Shown here one piece after another: positions 2,046 to 9,578 of a stretch of DNA of 38,253 nt (position 1 is the first letter of the stretch; every line of letters starts with the position of its first letter). The position numbers and the translations under genes were made by a program. The stretch is from contig JAHPYV010000001.1 in assembly GCA_019058495.1 (NCBI GenBank), forward strand, positions 1-38,253, written 5' to 3'. The DNA is from Promethearchaeati archaeon. Its GTDB lineage: Archaea; Asgardarchaeota; Atabeyarchaeia; Atabeyarchaeales; Atabeyarchaeaceae. Under the pieces are notes generated by a model. It was not told where the DNA came from and ran no database searches. It saw only the letters and a program-made list of their open reading frames with translations.

Positions 2046-3227
2046 TTATCTGAATGGTCTCCTCTCCCTCCTCAATTTACTGAGGATGAAGGAGTCCCCC
2101 GTTTTCCGAACCAGTTGTTCATATATGATCTCGATATCTCCATCTAGCAAATGCGCTCTTGCATCTGCCTCGATTAAGACTGAAGGTATCCCATACTCCG
2201 CGTTATGGTACGACAGGGGCAGAACAACAGAAGATATTTTTTTCGCTGTTAGTAATTGGTTAGATTCGGTTGCTAAATACTCCACTCTAATTGGTTTATC
2301 ATACTCGACAGTTCTCAGATAGAAAACGTTCACCGAATCAGCCCAAACCTTGTTTCTAAAGTCATCAAATATCGGATAGTCAAGCGGAAACTCAGCATAA
2401 CGAAAGACAGGTGTTCTCTCCCCAGGGTCAAGAACTCGCTGCAGAAACTCGGTGTCCCTTGTCTGCTGAATTACTCTTCTGTAGTCAAGGTCGAGAATTC
2501 TCTTAAGACCTGGTACCTTTTCCACCAAGTGGGGGATTAGCCTGCCGATAATCTGCATGTATCTTATGCTACGGCTATCTTCGATAACTCCAACCAGAAG
2601 CGTCCCAGACTCGATACATGATTTGTAGAGATCTTCGTAAAGTTCTACTACTTTTTCGTACTTGCGAGTCAACGTTGAGTAAGATGGGGGTCTGTCACTC
2701 AGTTGAGGAACTATCGAACCATTAAGAATAATCAAGTCAACTTTGGTATAATCCTGCAACTGTATTGCAAGCTGTATTTCACAGGTTACTCTCTCAATGG
2801 ACGTTCTCAGTTCAAAGTCTGGGATCGGGGACGGTTGGAGGCTCGAGATTATATTTGGAAGAGGAGTCTCCTCAGGAAAGTAGCCGACTTCAAGTTTGCC
2901 ATTAGGCCCATACGTGAAAATTGCAGCAACAGCTCTCGTCAAGATCAGGTTCATATTCTGGTAGGAACGGGCTACGATGCCTCCGTCTATTCCTGCTACC
3001 CGAAGTCCCGCTAAGCTTGTTGGTTTGACTTCGTAATAGGATTTTTCTTCTAAGATGTCACTAGTTATCTGCCGATTGAGAAGAGAGAGATCTAGACTGT
3101 TCTTTGTTTCTTTGAGGATTTCACCTAGTTTGGTTTTGTCTTCTTCAAGTCTCCTGATCTCAGCGGCGATATTGTTTACTGTTTCGTCAAGTTTATTGGC
3201 GTCCCTGCTATCATGCTGTCCTCTCAT
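2046..3227 (-). CDS. nurA: NurA domain nuclease
   Basis: VAGIDGGIV near the N-terminus, LIILNGSI, VGVIEDSRS and the usual NurA layout; ATG overlaps the pyrG stop (ATGA); next to HerA. Confidence 0.82.
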   Translation of the reverse strand: MRGQHDSRDANKLDETVNNIAAEIRRLEEDKTKLGEILKETKNSLDLSLLNRQITSDILEEKSYYEVKPTSLAGLRVAGIDGGIVARSYQNMNLILTRAVAAIFTYGPNGKLEVGYFPEETPLPNIISSLQPSPIPDFELRTSIERVTCEIQLAIQLQDYTKVDLIILNGSIVPQLSDRPPSYSTLTRKYEKVVELYEDLYKSCIESGTLLVGVIEDSRSIRYMQIIGRLIPHLVEKVPGLKRILDLDYRRVIQQTRDTEFLQRVLDPGERTPVFRYAEFPLDYPIFDDFRNKVWADSVNVFYLRTVEYDKPIRVEYLATESNQLLTAKKISSVVLPLSYHNAEYGIPSVLIEADARAHLLDGDIEIIYEQLVRKTGDSFILSKLRRERRPFR

Positions 3228-4930
3228 TTTGTGGAACTCACTTCAATCAGTTTAGGCGGATGAGTTTTCTTTCCTCCGTCTTTCCATTCTATGGCAGCCC
3301 TAATGAACGCAGAGTAAAGCGCGTTAGGGTTATCTGGCCTGCTCGTAAACTCGGGGTGAAATTGGACACCTAGGATCCATGCGTCTCCATCTACTTCGAT
3401 GGCATTGATGATCTTGCCTGTCTCATCGTAAGCTGACACTAAGAGTCCGGCTTTCTCTGCTTTCTCTACATAGTCTCTGATCAGATGGTATCTGTGTCTG
3501 AACCGCTCGATAACAGTGTCTTTTCCATATGCATTGTAGAGCTTGGTTCCTTTCTTTATTTTGACTACATGACCTCCAAGGCGCATCGTTCCGCCTTTAG
3601 TATCTATTAGCTTCTGATCTGGAAGCAGATCAACCACAGGGAATGGCGTATTGGGCTCAACTTCACTTGTGTTGGCACCCTTCAAGCCGAGAACTAATCT
3701 GCAGAATGCAATGAACAGCATTTGTGCGCCATAGCAGATTCCCAGGTAGGGTATCCCAAGTTCCAAAGCTGTCTGGGCGGTCAGGATCATTCCTTCGACT
3801 CCTCTCTCGCCAAACCCTGGAGTCGCAAGGATTCCATCATACTTCAGAAGCTCTTCTCTCCTTTCTGGCTCCTTCTCCATAAGCTCTGTATCTATCCAGT
3901 TGATCTTCACGGTCGCGCTGGAAAATGCGGCCGCGTGTTTCAAAGCCTCATTGATGCTGACATAGCTATCTGGGATTGCGACGTATTTTCCAGGCATTGC
4001 TATGGATATCTCTCTAGTTACATTCCTGTAAAGGTTCACAACGCTTACCCATTGGTTACTATCTACTCTCCTCTTTGGAAGCTCAAGTATCTTGCAAAGA
4101 TAATCGCCTAGTCCTTCCTTCTCGAACAATAGTGGAAGTTCATAGATGACTCCCAGATTCGGATTTGATATTACGGCCTCCGGTTGAACGTTACAGAACA
4201 AACTGATCTTCCGTTTAACGTCACTCGTAAGTGGAACTACGGCTCTGCCAAGTATCACGTCAGGCTGCAAACCAGCTTGCTGCAGCAATCTGACACTGTG
4301 TTGCGTAGGCTTAGACTTAAGCTGACCTACAGTTTCAAGATACGGCACCAAAGTCACATGGACTAGAACCACATTATCCCTTCTCTCTTCCAATCTGATC
4401 TGCCGGATAGCTTCCAAATAGGGACTAGATTCAATGTCACCAACAGTTCCACCAACCTCAGTTACAAGTAAGTCAGGTTTGTCGTCTTCAACAACCTTCC
4501 TGAGTCTGCCCTTAATCTCATCTGTGATGTGTGGAATGATCTGAACAGTCTTACCGAGAAAATCACCACGCCTTTCCTTCATAATCACGGTCAGATAGAC
4601 CTGGCCTGAAGTTATGTTGTGTGATGGATCAATATTCTTGCCGAGAAACCTCTCATAGGTGCCGAAATCCTGGTCTATCTCCGAGATTCTGAGGGTCATA
4701 TCCTTAGAAGGTTTAAACTCCCAAACATTATTAGTTATGAAAACCTCGCCATGCTCCACTGGGTTCAATGTTCCTGGATCAACATTGAAATAGGGATCAA
4801 CTTTTATCGCATCAACATCAAAACCCCTAAACTGCATAATCTTGCCTATCGAAGCCGCGCTGACCCCTTTGCCTAGACCCGACATAACACCGCCCGTTAC
4901 AAAAACGTACTTTGTATTGCCTCTCATCAT
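3224..4930 (-). CDS. pyrG: CTP synthase
   Basis: KYVFVTGGVMSGLGKG, KVDPYFNVDPGTLNPVEHGEVF, GATase domain GICYGAQM and QFHPEFTSRP. Confidence 0.97.
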   Translation of the reverse strand: MMRGNTKYVFVTGGVMSGLGKGVSAASIGKIMQFRGFDVDAIKVDPYFNVDPGTLNPVEHGEVFITNNVWEFKPSKDMTLRISEIDQDFGTYERFLGKNIDPSHNITSGQVYLTVIMKERRGDFLGKTVQIIPHITDEIKGRLRKVVEDDKPDLLVTEVGGTVGDIESSPYLEAIRQIRLEERRDNVVLVHVTLVPYLETVGQLKSKPTQHSVRLLQQAGLQPDVILGRAVVPLTSDVKRKISLFCNVQPEAVISNPNLGVIYELPLLFEKEGLGDYLCKILELPKRRVDSNQWVSVVNLYRNVTREISIAMPGKYVAIPDSYVSINEALKHAAAFSSATVKINWIDTELMEKEPERREELLKYDGILATPGFGERGVEGMILTAQTALELGIPYLGICYGAQMLFIAFCRLVLGLKGANTSEVEPNTPFPVVDLLPDQKLIDTKGGTMRLGGHVVKIKKGTKLYNAYGKDTVIERFRHRYHLIRDYVEKAEKAGLLVSAYDETGKIINAIEVDGDAWILGVQFHPEFTSRPDNPNALYSAFIRAAIEWKDGGKKTHPPKLIEVSSTK

Positions 4931-5633
4931 ATCTACACCTAAAGAAGAGTTGCTTACTAGTCAAGAAAAGTTAATTGCAGTATTATTCAAATCAGGAACA
5001 GAAGTACCACTCATAATATTCCCATGTGTGATAAGATGTATTTTACATTCCTCTTAAACGACTCTCATGGAAAAGTTGGGGTCATCGCGAGGATGTAACA
5101 TACTCTGCAATTGCATTTGAGGGCTCATCACTTTACTATTTCATCACCACGTTTCCTGACCCGCTTGCAGAACCGTCGTTTCCTCGTCTAAATCATGGAA
5201 AGGCACGATATTAAGCTTGTCTCTCCTCGCGGTAGTGCATGATGTGTAATTCCTGAAATACTGGTTACAAAGCACCAGAAATGTTGCTCCAACACTAGAC
5301 TATTTAGTGCGTCACATGGTTGCAGTAGGATACTTTGCTATTTTTCTAAATAGGTTAACGGAAACATGAAATATACCGCGTCGTATCTGTGATGTCACTT
5401 CATGATCCATCGTTGACGAGATGGTAAGCATTAGTTGTTCCTCCGACCCTACGATTATTCTTCGGTACCGGCTATGTCTGACTGATTTTTGCTGTAGGGT
5501 TTTAAGAAGGTTCTCATTTGTTTTTCGCCTTATATAGAATGGTTATTGATCGCGGTTCTGAATAACGCGGACAACAGAAAATTCGCGACCGATATCTGAG
5601 AAAAGTCGAGAGAATCAACGATGTGTTCTTGGA

Positions 5634-5643
5634 GTATAAATAT
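5634..5643 (+). promoter_or_regulatory. Candidate TATA box for the 720-aa ORF
   Basis: GTATAAATAT about 100 nt upstream of the ORF, flanked by CGATGT (5619-5624) and ACATCG (5656-5661). Confidence 0.45.
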
Positions 5644-5738
5644 CGTATTTGCCCAACATCGCCTTGGAAACGATGCATCATCATCATTTGACCAAGCTGT
5701 ATCGCCTCACTTGATAGCTTAACTGCAGCGAGAACACG

Positions 5739-7901
5739 ATGGAAGGGGTTGAGAGGATGCATACTGAAAACGGAGAAAACGTACGAGGAAACCCGGAGAA
5801 TCCAAGGGAAGACGACAAGGAAGGGGACAATCTAGAACTTTGTCTAAAAGAATATCAGGATACATTGAACCAATCAGAAGAACCTGTCGAGGAGAAATCA
5901 GAAGCCGAATCAATAGTCCCCATCGATGAATCTGGGAGAAGGGAAGAAGACGGCGGAGACGCCGACCTAGAACAGTGTCTGAAAGAATTCCAAGAAACAT
6001 TAAACCAACCAGAAGAACTCGACCAGACAAGTCCAGAGGAGGAATCAATAGTCCTCAACGATGGATTCGGCGGGAAGGGAACGGAAGCCCACGAAATTGA
6101 AACAAAAAGCCCTGAGGATGAAAACCCGAAAGCACTCAGTACGGGAGGAGAAGATGGAACAAGTCAAGAGAGCCAAGAAGCAACGGACAAACAAAAAACA
6201 GACGACGGAGAGGCTACTCAAGTACCCGAGAAAGAAGAACAAAGGACAGATGCCGATATTAAGAGCCAATCAACAAAAGAGGAAAAAAGGCTTCCTCAAC
6301 AGAGCGATAGGAGCCTCAACCAAGATGAAGAACGAGGAGAATTCAAAGCGGAGAGGGATAAGAATGCTACAGAAGAACCTCAACCGACATCAGAGCATCA
6401 AGAAGGCGACCTAGAACACAACAAACACCAGGAGACACGAGCAAATAAACAGCATGAGATCAACGAAAGCAAGAAAACCGAGATAAGAAACGCCAAGCAA
6501 GATACTGAAAACCAAGAACAAAGGCCCACTTCTCCGAAACCGAGTGATAACCCCAGAGCATTTCTCGAAGCCAACCGCGAGCTCCTCATGATGGAAGGAA
6601 TAGCCTTCAAGAACGATGAAGCAAAGCTGGACGAGAAAACGACGCTGAAGTTGAACGTGAACGAGGGATTCACAATAATCCATGAAAACTGGAGCTACAT
6701 GATCACGACTACAAAGCAAGAAAGCATAGGAAACCTGGTGCTAAGCAGATACAGAACACGACAAGGGGAAGAATTCCTTCACATACCAGAGCAGGGAAAA
6801 GTGGTTCCACCCCACGAAACACCGTGGTATGCCTTATCACCAGATACTAGAATATACCTTGAAAAAGGCTACAAGCATGAGTTACTCCGAGCTGCAATAG
6901 CCAAAGCGGGAGGAGAGGCTCAACTCAGGCGAGAATTGAAGGACAGAGAAACACACCTATGTGACAACTACTTATACAGACATCTGCGTGAACAACGAGA
7001 AAGCATGCAAGCAGGCAAGCTAGTTGCAATTCTAACAAATCTTGAGAAAGACCTCGATGAACCAAATAGCCACATTACCGCAATCGGAAACAAAAGAGCA
7101 ATAGAAACCCCAAATTTACCATTCAGCCTCAACAGCACTGATGGTGCAAGAATAATGGCAGCAAGGTACTCAGATGGGACCAACTGTACACCAGAAGGAA
7201 GAGGACCGGAGTTTGACTACGCAAACAACGACCTGGAATGCAGAAATCGGGTCGAAGAATCCTTGAGAGAAGTCTTCGGTAGAGCGAACATAGTCAACAA
7301 AGAATATGAGACAGGTGAGGTGCCAAAAGTGCGAACGTCAACATACATTATCGGACAAACACTGGAAAGAGCAGGAGCAGTAATTGGTGAAGTAATCGAA
7401 CAAAACCCGCATGTGCCCACCTTTATATTGGAAGGGTCAAGAGAAATGAAACGTGAGTGGCTAATACAGGCTTTTGGCGATGAAGGATACGTATGGCCAC
7501 AAAGAGGAAAAATTCGCCTAGGGAGAGCGGCAGAAGTGACAGGAGTCCTATCCGAGGATATGAAGAAATACCTCGAACAACTAAAATGGGAGGACAAAAT
7601 CTTTCGCGGAAACTTAATCTGCCGAGCACACCCATACGATGATCTTCCATTTGAAATCAAGGAAGCAATAGGAAACCACCCGCCTAACCTATTATTAGAA
7701 GAGAGGAGCATGCTCAGGAGCTTCGGGATTAACACGAAAATGTATCCTAGAGATATCTATCGTAGAGAAGGAGGCTTTGGAGCTAACTGGATTCTGCAAA
7801 CTGAAACCAGAGAAGATGGCAAACGTTTTCTTTACGAAATAGGTTTTCCACAAGAAAGGAAGAGGATGGAACTGATCTCAATGCTGAGACTCGAGAAGTG
7901 A
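5739..7901 (+). CDS. LAGLIDADG homing-endonuclease-like protein with a long charged N-terminal region
   Basis: HTH-like HELLRAAIAKAGGEAQLRRELKD...YLYRHLRE; ITAIGNKRAIETPNLPFSL; LAGLIDADG-like motif 1 IMAARYSDG (7152-7178) and motif 2 LIQAFGDEG (7461-7487) with the usual spacing and NPHVPTFI before motif 2. Possible alternative start at 5757. Confidence 0.75.
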   Translation: MEGVERMHTENGENVRGNPENPREDDKEGDNLELCLKEYQDTLNQSEEPVEEKSEAESIVPIDESGRREEDGGDADLEQCLKEFQETLNQPEELDQTSPEEESIVLNDGFGGKGTEAHEIETKSPEDENPKALSTGGEDGTSQESQEATDKQKTDDGEATQVPEKEEQRTDADIKSQSTKEEKRLPQQSDRSLNQDEERGEFKAERDKNATEEPQPTSEHQEGDLEHNKHQETRANKQHEINESKKTEIRNAKQDTENQEQRPTSPKPSDNPRAFLEANRELLMMEGIAFKNDEAKLDEKTTLKLNVNEGFTIIHENWSYMITTTKQESIGNLVLSRYRTRQGEEFLHIPEQGKVVPPHETPWYALSPDTRIYLEKGYKHELLRAAIAKAGGEAQLRRELKDRETHLCDNYLYRHLREQRESMQAGKLVAILTNLEKDLDEPNSHITAIGNKRAIETPNLPFSLNSTDGARIMAARYSDGTNCTPEGRGPEFDYANNDLECRNRVEESLREVFGRANIVNKEYETGEVPKVRTSTYIIGQTLERAGAVIGEVIEQNPHVPTFILEGSREMKREWLIQAFGDEGYVWPQRGKIRLGRAAEVTGVLSEDMKKYLEQLKWEDKIFRGNLICRAHPYDDLPFEIKEAIGNHPPNLLLEERSMLRSFGINTKMYPRDIYRREGGFGANWILQTETREDGKRFLYEIGFPQERKRMELISMLRLEK
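5826..6064 (+). repeat. Intragenic direct duplication in the N-terminal region of the 720-aa ORF
   Basis: NLELCLKEYQDTLNQSEEP...ESIVPIDESG and DLEQCLKEFQETLNQPEEL...ESIVLNDGFG, about 130 nt apart. Confidence 0.8.
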
Positions 7902-7956
7902 GGATCCAAAAAAACCTCGGATGATGGAGGATTCGTAGAATTGGCTGAGCGAGCAT

Positions 7957-7998
7957 GCCCCCGGTCACAAGAATATATTTCGTGTTAGTTCTCATCAA
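7957..7998 (-). pseudogene. Displaced 5' fragment of pyrG (14 codons)
   Basis: Encodes MMRTNTKYILVTGG against pyrG MMRGNTKYVFVTGG: 11/14 aa identical, about 28/42 nt identical, most differences at third positions; same strand as pyrG. Confidence 0.85.
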
Positions 7999-8044
7999 TA
8001 GATACCTCTAACCCAGAGTTGACACAGTTAGAATAAAGCTCTCC

Positions 8045-8062
8045 TACCTTCCCTTGAAGGTA
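8045..8062. repeat. Hairpin/inverted repeat
   Basis: TACCTTC CCTT GAAGGTA, perfect 7-bp stem. Confidence 0.7.
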
Positions 8063-8080
8063 TGACGATACATAATAGGA

Positions 8081-8116
8081 TGTCTACTAAACTCTTTTAA
8101 AGAGTTTTCGTAGACA
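8081..8116. repeat. 36-bp near-perfect inverted repeat
   Basis: TGTCTACTAAACTCTTTTAAAGAGTTTTCGTAGACA. Confidence 0.8.
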
Positions 8117-8130
8117 ACACATGAAACACT

Positions 8131-8249
8131 ACGACGGCGTATGCGCACTGTATGTGCGCGAGAGATCAGTCGCTGTACGCTTCGTCACCGCGCCTCTAGG
8201 CGCTCCCGAGACCGTCGTCACATCATCTTGAATAAAAAGATATGTGACG
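8131..8249 (+). ncRNA. Candidate structured RNA of unknown family
   Basis: Closing stem ACGACGG(8131-8137)/CCGTCGT(8212-8218); GCGTA(8137-8141)/TACGC(8176-8180); hairpins GCGCAC-TGTAT-GTGCGC (8143-8159) and GCGCC-TCTA-GGCGC (8190-8203); 3' hairpin CGTCACAT(C)ATCTT/AAGATATGTGACG (8216-8249). Strand uncertain. Confidence 0.45.
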
Positions 8250-8531
8250 CGGATTTTAAACTTATCTATCGTAAGACTAAATCCAAGTTGAGCTTGTGAA
8301 CAAAATGATGCTGGGCTCGTTCTAATGCCTTTTCGTCACTTTTGACCTTGATATCAGAACTCTCTATAATTCATTGCCCAGCATCTGATCCTTAAGAAGG
8401 TAAGATTCGTATTTTAATGTAACTCAGAACAGGTAGATGCGTTAGGTAAGGTTTAATATGGAATTTGATCAAACTACTTTGTTTCTTTGTGCGAAGCATG
8501 ATGACTTCAATAGTACTGAGGTGAGGGTTCT

Positions 8532-9578
8532 TTGCCGTGTACAGTAATAGTAGGAGGGTTCTTTGGTGATGAGGGGAAAGGTAAGATTGTGGCTTATCTC
8601 TCGGTCAAGGACCGCCCGACTGTGGTTGCTAGGGCTGGTGTGGGAACGAATGCTGGTCACTCGTTTAACCTCGATGGAGCGTCTGTTAAGCTACGGCAGG
8701 TGCCAAGTGGTTTTCCTTACAGGAATGCTAGACTTTTGATTGGTCCTGGTGTTTTGGTTGATCCGGTTGTATTCTTCGACGAAGTTGAGAAGACCAAAGT
8801 TAACGGAAGAATTGGCGTTGATAAGCAGTGTGCCATTATAGAGCAGCAACACATCGAAAGGGACAAGTCGGACATGCATCTTTCGTCTAAGGTTGGTACG
8901 ACTGGAAGTGGAACGGGACCCTGTAATTCTGATAGAGCATTGAGGCTGACGAAGCTTGCAAAGGATTTACCTGAACTGAAGGAGTACATCGCAGATGTGC
9001 CTAAAGAAGTAAACGATGCGCTGGACAAGAACCAGTCTGTCATTGTGGAGGGAACGCAAGGAACTTTTCTGTCATTATTTCACGGAACTTATCCCTATTG
9101 TACAAGCAAGGATGTCTGCGCCTCGCAGGCATGCGCTGATGTTGGGATTGGACCGACCCGAGTCGATGATGTCCTGGTTATCTTTAAGTCGTTCGTTACT
9201 CGTGTTGGAGCAGGTGAGTTGGCTGGAGAACTTGGCGAAGAGGAGATAGAGCGAAGAGGTTGGGTAGAGTATGGAACTGTGACAGGTAGACTGAGAAGAG
9301 CAGCCCCATTCAACTTCGATCTGGCGCGTAGAGCAGTGATGCTCAACGGAGCAACTCAAGTAGCAATAACCAAACTAGATGTGATATTCCCCGAATGCAA
9401 AGATGCTAAGTCCGAAAAAGATCTTCCAAAGGAAGCTGCTGCATTTATCAAGAAGGTTGAGGGAAGCATCAAGGTGCCGGTTGCACTTGTCGGAACAGGT
9501 CCAGACATTAATTCAATCATAGATTTTAGGGAGAAACGATCTCACCCCAAAGACCAGCAGAAGACTACCAAGAGCTGA
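8532..9578 (+). CDS. purA: Adenylosuccinate synthetase
   Basis: TTG start after GAGGTGAGG; VGGFFGDEGKGKIVAYL, GVGTNAGHSF, VEGTQGTFLSLFHGTYPYCTSKD, TGRLRRAAPFN. Confidence 0.95.
   Translation: MPCTVIVGGFFGDEGKGKIVAYLSVKDRPTVVARAGVGTNAGHSFNLDGASVKLRQVPSGFPYRNARLLIGPGVLVDPVVFFDEVEKTKVNGRIGVDKQCAIIEQQHIERDKSDMHLSSKVGTTGSGTGPCNSDRALRLTKLAKDLPELKEYIADVPKEVNDALDKNQSVIVEGTQGTFLSLFHGTYPYCTSKDVCASQACADVGIGPTRVDDVLVIFKSFVTRVGAGELAGELGEEEIERRGWVEYGTVTGRLRRAAPFNFDLARRAVMLNGATQVAITKLDVIFPECKDAKSEKDLPKEAAAFIKKVEGSIKVPVALVGTGPDINSIIDFREKRSHPKDQQKTTKS

Follow-up and report, generated by a model that had tools for sequence, protein, structure and literature searches.

In a 38,253-nucleotide stretch of Asgard archaeal DNA (the window), the CTP synthase gene pyrG appears to have received a foreign 5′ end, while its original start lies stranded beyond an open reading frame (ORF) for a putative LAGLIDADG endonuclease. 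We consider it very probable that positions 4889 to 7956 are a free-standing homing element working like the WHO elements of yeasts. Sequence comparisons and a structure model demonstrated the insertion, the replaced and stranded gene ends, the endonuclease fold, and the recurrence of the arrangement at other genes. The assemblies analyzed are metagenome-derived.

An insertion at the 5′ end of pyrG

The start of pyrG occurs twice at this locus, at the coordinates given in the first-pass annotation and both times on the minus strand. The proximal copy (4889-4930) is fused to the rest of the gene, and the distal copy (7957-7998) reads MMRTNTKYILVTGG when its TTG first codon is taken as Met. The two share 11 of 14 residues, and their homology ends at codon 14 on either side, again as first described. 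Most of the nucleotide differences had been called silent, and synonymous sites were indeed saturated from codon 2 on (pS of 0.98 versus pN of 0.13), with exactly one base difference per codon at codons 5 to 14. The distal copy with its leader was 83% identical over 54 nt to the intact pyrG start of a relative (E of about 3e-11), so its resemblance is more than chance, and the relative's pyrG also has a TTG start. The earlier description of the copies and the interval between them held in the main, with two corrections: the distal start codon is TTG, and a promoter-like stretch lies within 4931-5738. No further foreign tract was seen in the regional divergence along pyrG.

We compared the locus with relatives that all belong to the host's phylum, Asgard, including Ca. 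Njordarchaeum guaymaensis MAG GB_154. The purA and pyrG genes were directly divergent and a few hundred bases apart in seven relatives. A search for an uninterrupted purA-pyrG arrangement, which the first-pass annotation had proposed, found it on a GB_154 contig (L118), the best empty site, and in seven more distant relatives. When the window flanks were joined (7957 onward and 4888 downward), they aligned to L118 without a gap exactly across codons 14|15, with 44 of 54 nt identical before the junction and 46 of 54 after it. The conserved core of the purA-pyrG intergenic region adjoins the distal copy and is absent from the region upstream of the proximal copy. Together, the gap-free alignment and the position of this core indicate that the distal start is native and that 4889-7956 is the insert. 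Judged by these alignments, the 3068 bp form a precise insertion with nothing of the target lost or duplicated, 7957-7998 being the native pyrG start, still at its original position, and 4889-4930 a foreign replacement. These results bear out the initial proposal of a roughly 3.07-kb insert that stranded the original pyrG 5′ end about 3 kb away and supplied 14 foreign codons. The pyrG insert was present in one genome only.

The GB_154 bin has 12% contamination, and the L118 pyrG is 81% identical to that of the window versus 53 to 59% for the GB_154 genus mates, so the L118 contig may derive from another Asgard lineage. The hairpin at 8307-8390, with the core GTGACGAAAAGGCATT, was kept in seven related loci and resembles a C/D-box sRNA, with no match in Rfam. 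Separately, in L028, L029, and L031, all from one genus (f13/g15), a short conserved hairpin with a stop codon interrupts pyrG near codon 48; this hairpin, at about L029:1467-1499, is like a bulge-helix-bulge mRNA intron.

Table 1. Features of the pyrG locus and gene ends associated with the endonuclease family at other Asgard loci
Feature	Position or locus	Strand	Remarks
pyrG (CTP synthase), chimeric: foreign codons 1-14, native from codon 15 onward	3224..4930	-	Pfam CTP_synth_N 1e-106; 81% identical to L118 pyrG
Replacement pyrG 5′ end, MMRGNTKYVFVTGG, insert-borne	4889..4930	-	28/42 nt identical to stranded copy; synonymous sites saturated
Spacer; 5508-5562 promoter-like	4931..5738		5508-5562 80% identical to promoter-position stretch on contig C274
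720-aa ORF, antisense to pyrG: charged low-complexity N-terminal part, LAGLIDADG endonuclease-like C-terminal part	5739..7901	+	
LAGLIDADG motif 1, ARIMAARYSDG, acidic D479	7146..7178	+	D and G invariant in 25 family members
LAGLIDADG motif 2, REWLIQAFGDEG, acidic E582	7452..7487	+	Aligned with family YLxxLIPEEG and intein endonucleases
Possible remnant of small ORF, cut at junction	7902..7956	+	Weak similarity to small ORF after this gene in L005, L006, L074
Stranded native pyrG 5′ end, codons 1-14, TTG start	7957..7998	-	Gap-free versus uninterrupted L118 site
Native purA-pyrG intergenic region, conserved hairpin at about 8307-8390	7999..8531		Core common to L017, L018, L020, L021, L028, L031, L118
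purA (adenylosuccinate synthetase), divergent native neighbor of pyrG	8532..9578	+	
Ornithine carbamoyltransferase, duplicated 3′ end	L150		
Lsm protein, two stranded ends	L153		
VhuA hydrogenase, up to four stranded ends	L155		
MTHFR, eleventh case	L158		Endonuclease ORF broken
SufS, duplicated 3′ end	L160		
ScpB, duplicated 3′ end	L193		
FpoD/NuoD-like protein, up to four stranded ends	L197		
HDAC-family protein, duplicated 3′ end	L207, L209		L207 fragment cut by contig end
ETF-alpha, duplicated 3′ end	L246		

The 720-aa ORF and its protein family

The acidic residues of both LAGLIDADG motifs of the ORF, in SDG (D479) and GDEG (E582), aligned across 25 family members. A profile of the family matched the intein endonucleases TliVMA (E of 9e-7) and PI-PkoII (1e-4) in the PDB, and the Pfam LAGLIDADG_3 match of the 720-aa protein fell below its cut-off. 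A first structure model, made from four sequences, was poor (pLDDT of 54) and was superseded by an AlphaFold model of the endonuclease core from a 25-sequence alignment (pLDDT of 91), with which Foldseek returned the TliVMA intein (1.7e-8), I-DmoI (1e-6), and PI-SceI. Judged by its motifs and the modeled core, the product has the LAGLIDADG endonuclease fold, in keeping with the resemblance already noted in the first pass. The ORF is intact, with a dN of 0.3 to 0.4 against a dS of 2 or more, the latter near saturation, in comparisons with three relatives.

The element had been described as neither intron nor intein, and the scans agreed. The ORF is antisense to pyrG, scans with Pfam and NCBIfam matched no protein-splicing domain in it, Rfam matched no RNA, introns included, within 3000-9000, and the gene end is duplicated rather than interrupted. 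The 720-aa translation has no CxxC anywhere and hence no sign of a zinc finger. No recombinase ORF was found in the insert, nor a long identical core at both junctions, and the spacer (4931-5738) resembled neither the native DNA between purA and pyrG nor the other family loci.

Three relatives of the protein are encoded in its own genome, as intact copies on contigs C82 and C157 and as a remnant on C239. Decayed remnants of a HerA-like ATPase precede the C82 and C157 copies and a small ORF follows them, and the same order is intact in GB_154. The window insert has no ATPase, and its small ORF is seemingly cut exactly at the junction, as far as a weak similarity can tell. The 720-aa ORF was absent at all the empty purA-pyrG sites and has these paralogs elsewhere, so it is not the ordinary vertically inherited neighbor that the first-pass annotation had asked about. 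No close homologs were found in GTDB contigs, IMG/VR, plasmids, or phages. Beside the C157 paralog, an MTAP-like gene is interrupted by about 38 nt with a bulge-helix-bulge-like hairpin (L006:4073-4112); removal of these nucleotides would restore its reading frame, and they are a possible mRNA intron.

HerA/CedD-like ATPases adjoin the family ORF in 13 of the 85 loci that we scanned. The family gene follows a membrane HerA/CedD-like ATPase gene in, for example, L074, L110, L111, L112, L142, and L221. Such an endonuclease-ATPase operon may belong to DNA transfer or mobile elements and, since the family is also found in this setting, homing may not be its only role.

Duplicated gene ends at other Asgard loci

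Matches to the family profile at an E of 1e-10 occurred in 74 of 232 Asgard genomes, the weaker ones possibly being other LAGLIDADG proteins. We scanned the surroundings of 85 family ORFs for genes whose ORF-proximal end recurs on the opposite side of the ORF. A loose scan returned such ends at 10 of the 85 family ORFs and at 10 of 387 control ORFs (Fisher 8e-4). Because the control matches fell on short or poorly matching ORFs, a strict criterion was adopted after this result had been seen (gene of at least 140 aa, match at least 55% identical, terminus reached), and the counts became 10/85 versus 0/387 (Fisher 2e-8). One control match, at L221, proved to belong to the endonuclease family, as a second fragment.

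About nine other kinds of gene, in other Asgard genomes, had a duplicated 3′ end stranded beyond a family ORF (Table 1), and most of the stranded fragments reach the gene's own stop codon. The 5′-end arrangement was seen once among the 85 ORFs, at pyrG. The presence of further family members at the ends of other genes strengthens the proposal of gene-end replacement. Several stranded ends, as at L153, L155, and L197, are expected if homing repeats. The breaks fall at DPC|LSC in VhuA, at DPC|FSC in the FpoD-like gene, and just before the P-loop in pyrG (VTGG|VMSGLGKG); the first two look like one conserved metal-binding motif, comparable with the P-loop break.

The SufS locus indicates which of the two ends is native. 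The SufS body in G219 is 95 to 96% identical to those of its two nearest sisters (285/300 and 288/300 nt). Its fused end matched the sister genome G215 at only 107 of 135 nt, and its stranded end matched at 126 of 135 nt and then continued into the sister genome's downstream sequence. The stranded end was also favored by 14 of 15 other close orthologs, the exception being G216. These matches identify the stranded SufS end as the native one and the fused end as foreign, and VhuA agrees in direction. The G216 SufS gene (L250) carries no insert at the end examined, and the sequence of this end falls between the native and the replaced version; gene conversion or loss of an element may have left it as a resistant allele. 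Genus g60 includes genomes with and without the SufS insert, G216 among the latter.

Two further loci were set aside as gene-end cases: the duplicated sequences at L216 are tRNA 3′ ends, L247 reads likewise, and neither was counted. These tRNA 3′-end sequences beside family members (L216:8086-8139 and 2402-2455; L247:8882-8932) are possibly another kind of target. Genes for S-adenosylhomocysteine hydrolase adjoin family members at L077 and L114; the one at L077 appears truncated at the family member, and the sequence read may stop short of a stranded 3′ end.

Proposed mechanism, alternative explanations, and known systems

We propose that the LAGLIDADG endonuclease encoded by the ORF would recognize the conserved P-loop codons of an uninterrupted pyrG and cut there, and that the break would be repaired from an element-bearing template copy. 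The outcome, seen at the locus, is an element lying between the stranded old 5′ end and a 5′ end from the donor that continues in frame into pyrG, the replacement end keeping CTP synthase intact. Almost every codon of the replacement carries a synonymous difference, so half of the recognition site should be lost with it and the host should thereby gain protection. At only 42 nt, the replacement is too short for identifying its donor. Comparable changes at the 3′ ends of roughly nine further Asgard genes are attributed to other members of the endonuclease family.

The structure at pyrG could also have arisen by a one-off capture, in which a break in pyrG, whatever its cause, was closed by end joining on one side and on the other by homologous recombination with foreign DNA where the ORF lay upstream of a pyrG homolog; the ORF would then be a non-homing passenger. 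The distal junction appears to fall within a truncated small ORF, the homology of the ORF to its paralogs starts at its own start, and the copies elsewhere in the genome are not near duplicated gene ends but belong to an operon remnant that includes a HerA-like ATPase, all of which suits a capture. However, both acidic residues are kept, the protein family recurs at the duplicated ends of about nine other kinds of gene, and the several stranded copies at L155 and L197 are as expected from repeated homing; a one-off capture is therefore unlikely.

Some known elements integrate into gene 5′ ends and carry a replacement start in their attachment site. A decayed element of this kind, inserted at pyrG by a site-specific recombinase, would have the same result, a new start on the gene and the native one left stranded; the ATPase-linked relatives resemble parts of transfer elements. 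We regard this origin as very improbable, because the insert has no recombinase ORF, the copies differ throughout with no long identical core at the junction, and the pattern recurs with a LAGLIDADG gene at unrelated genes. A chimera of metagenome assembly is hardly credible: although the genome is a bin of 284 contigs with an estimated 5.85% contamination, it would take two independent misjoins, either in frame or falling precisely at codon 14|15, and equivalent structures occur in several other assemblies.

The homing element reading would have wider consequences. A whole archaeal family would replace the ends of many unrelated genes, the pyrG case being at a 5′ end, and chimeric genes would arise without introns or inteins. 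Asgard archaea are the group used to root eukaryote origins, and single-gene trees of their core genes would be disturbed by such chimeras. New site-specific endonucleases might also be drawn from the family, with the stranded gene ends revealing their targets. On a broader reading, which we put forward with considerable doubt, a large family of homing elements that replace gene ends might be at work in Asgard archaea, overwriting 5′ as well as 3′ ends of numerous core genes time and again where their motifs are most conserved; with the same endonuclease family in HerA/CedD-like ATPase operons, homing might be coupled to cell-to-cell DNA transfer. The Asgard elements would provide an archaeal counterpart to the WHO elements of yeasts, the presumed ancestors of the mating-type endonuclease HO.

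Homing by replacement of one host gene end has been described mainly in yeasts and fungal mitochondria, and a prokaryotic case is, to our knowledge, new; no report of one was found in the openly accessible literature searched. The archaeal intein endonucleases (TliVMA and PI-PkoII) and I-DmoI share the LAGLIDADG fold and both motifs with the window ORF, but no splicing domain was found in the latter, which is out of frame with pyrG and lies outside any intron. The first-pass annotation had pointed to fungal mitochondrial mobile elements, and the logic is the same: in Allomyces atp6 and in Glomus atp6, atp9, cox2, and nad3, an endonuclease ORF comes with a foreign gene end fused in frame, and the native end is left behind (PMC3630166). 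The Glomus atp6 copies are 63.5% identical (PMC3630166), compared with 67% for the pyrG start copies. However, those ORFs are mitochondrial, affect 3′ ends only, and are sometimes in frame with the gene (PMC3630166), and the WHO element is the better analogue. In Torulaspora and Lachancea yeasts, WHO elements consist of a free-standing, intein-related LAGLIDADG endonuclease gene that replaces the 3′ end of the conserved housekeeping gene FBA1 at each insertion, the replaced end being divergent and the native ends stranded and clustered after repeated events (PMC7282813). WHO proteins have a C-terminal zinc finger with several CxxC motifs (PMC7282813), whereas the pyrG element has no zinc finger, its family resides in archaea and has many target genes, and the window case is a 5′ end. 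Because it is archaeal and lacks the zinc finger, we did not file the pyrG element as a WHO element. Both kinds of element nevertheless have one gene end replaced and the native one stranded past the endonuclease gene, as seen at pyrG, SufS, and further loci, and the pattern of native and foreign ends at SufS is the one described for yeast FBA1 (PMC7282813).
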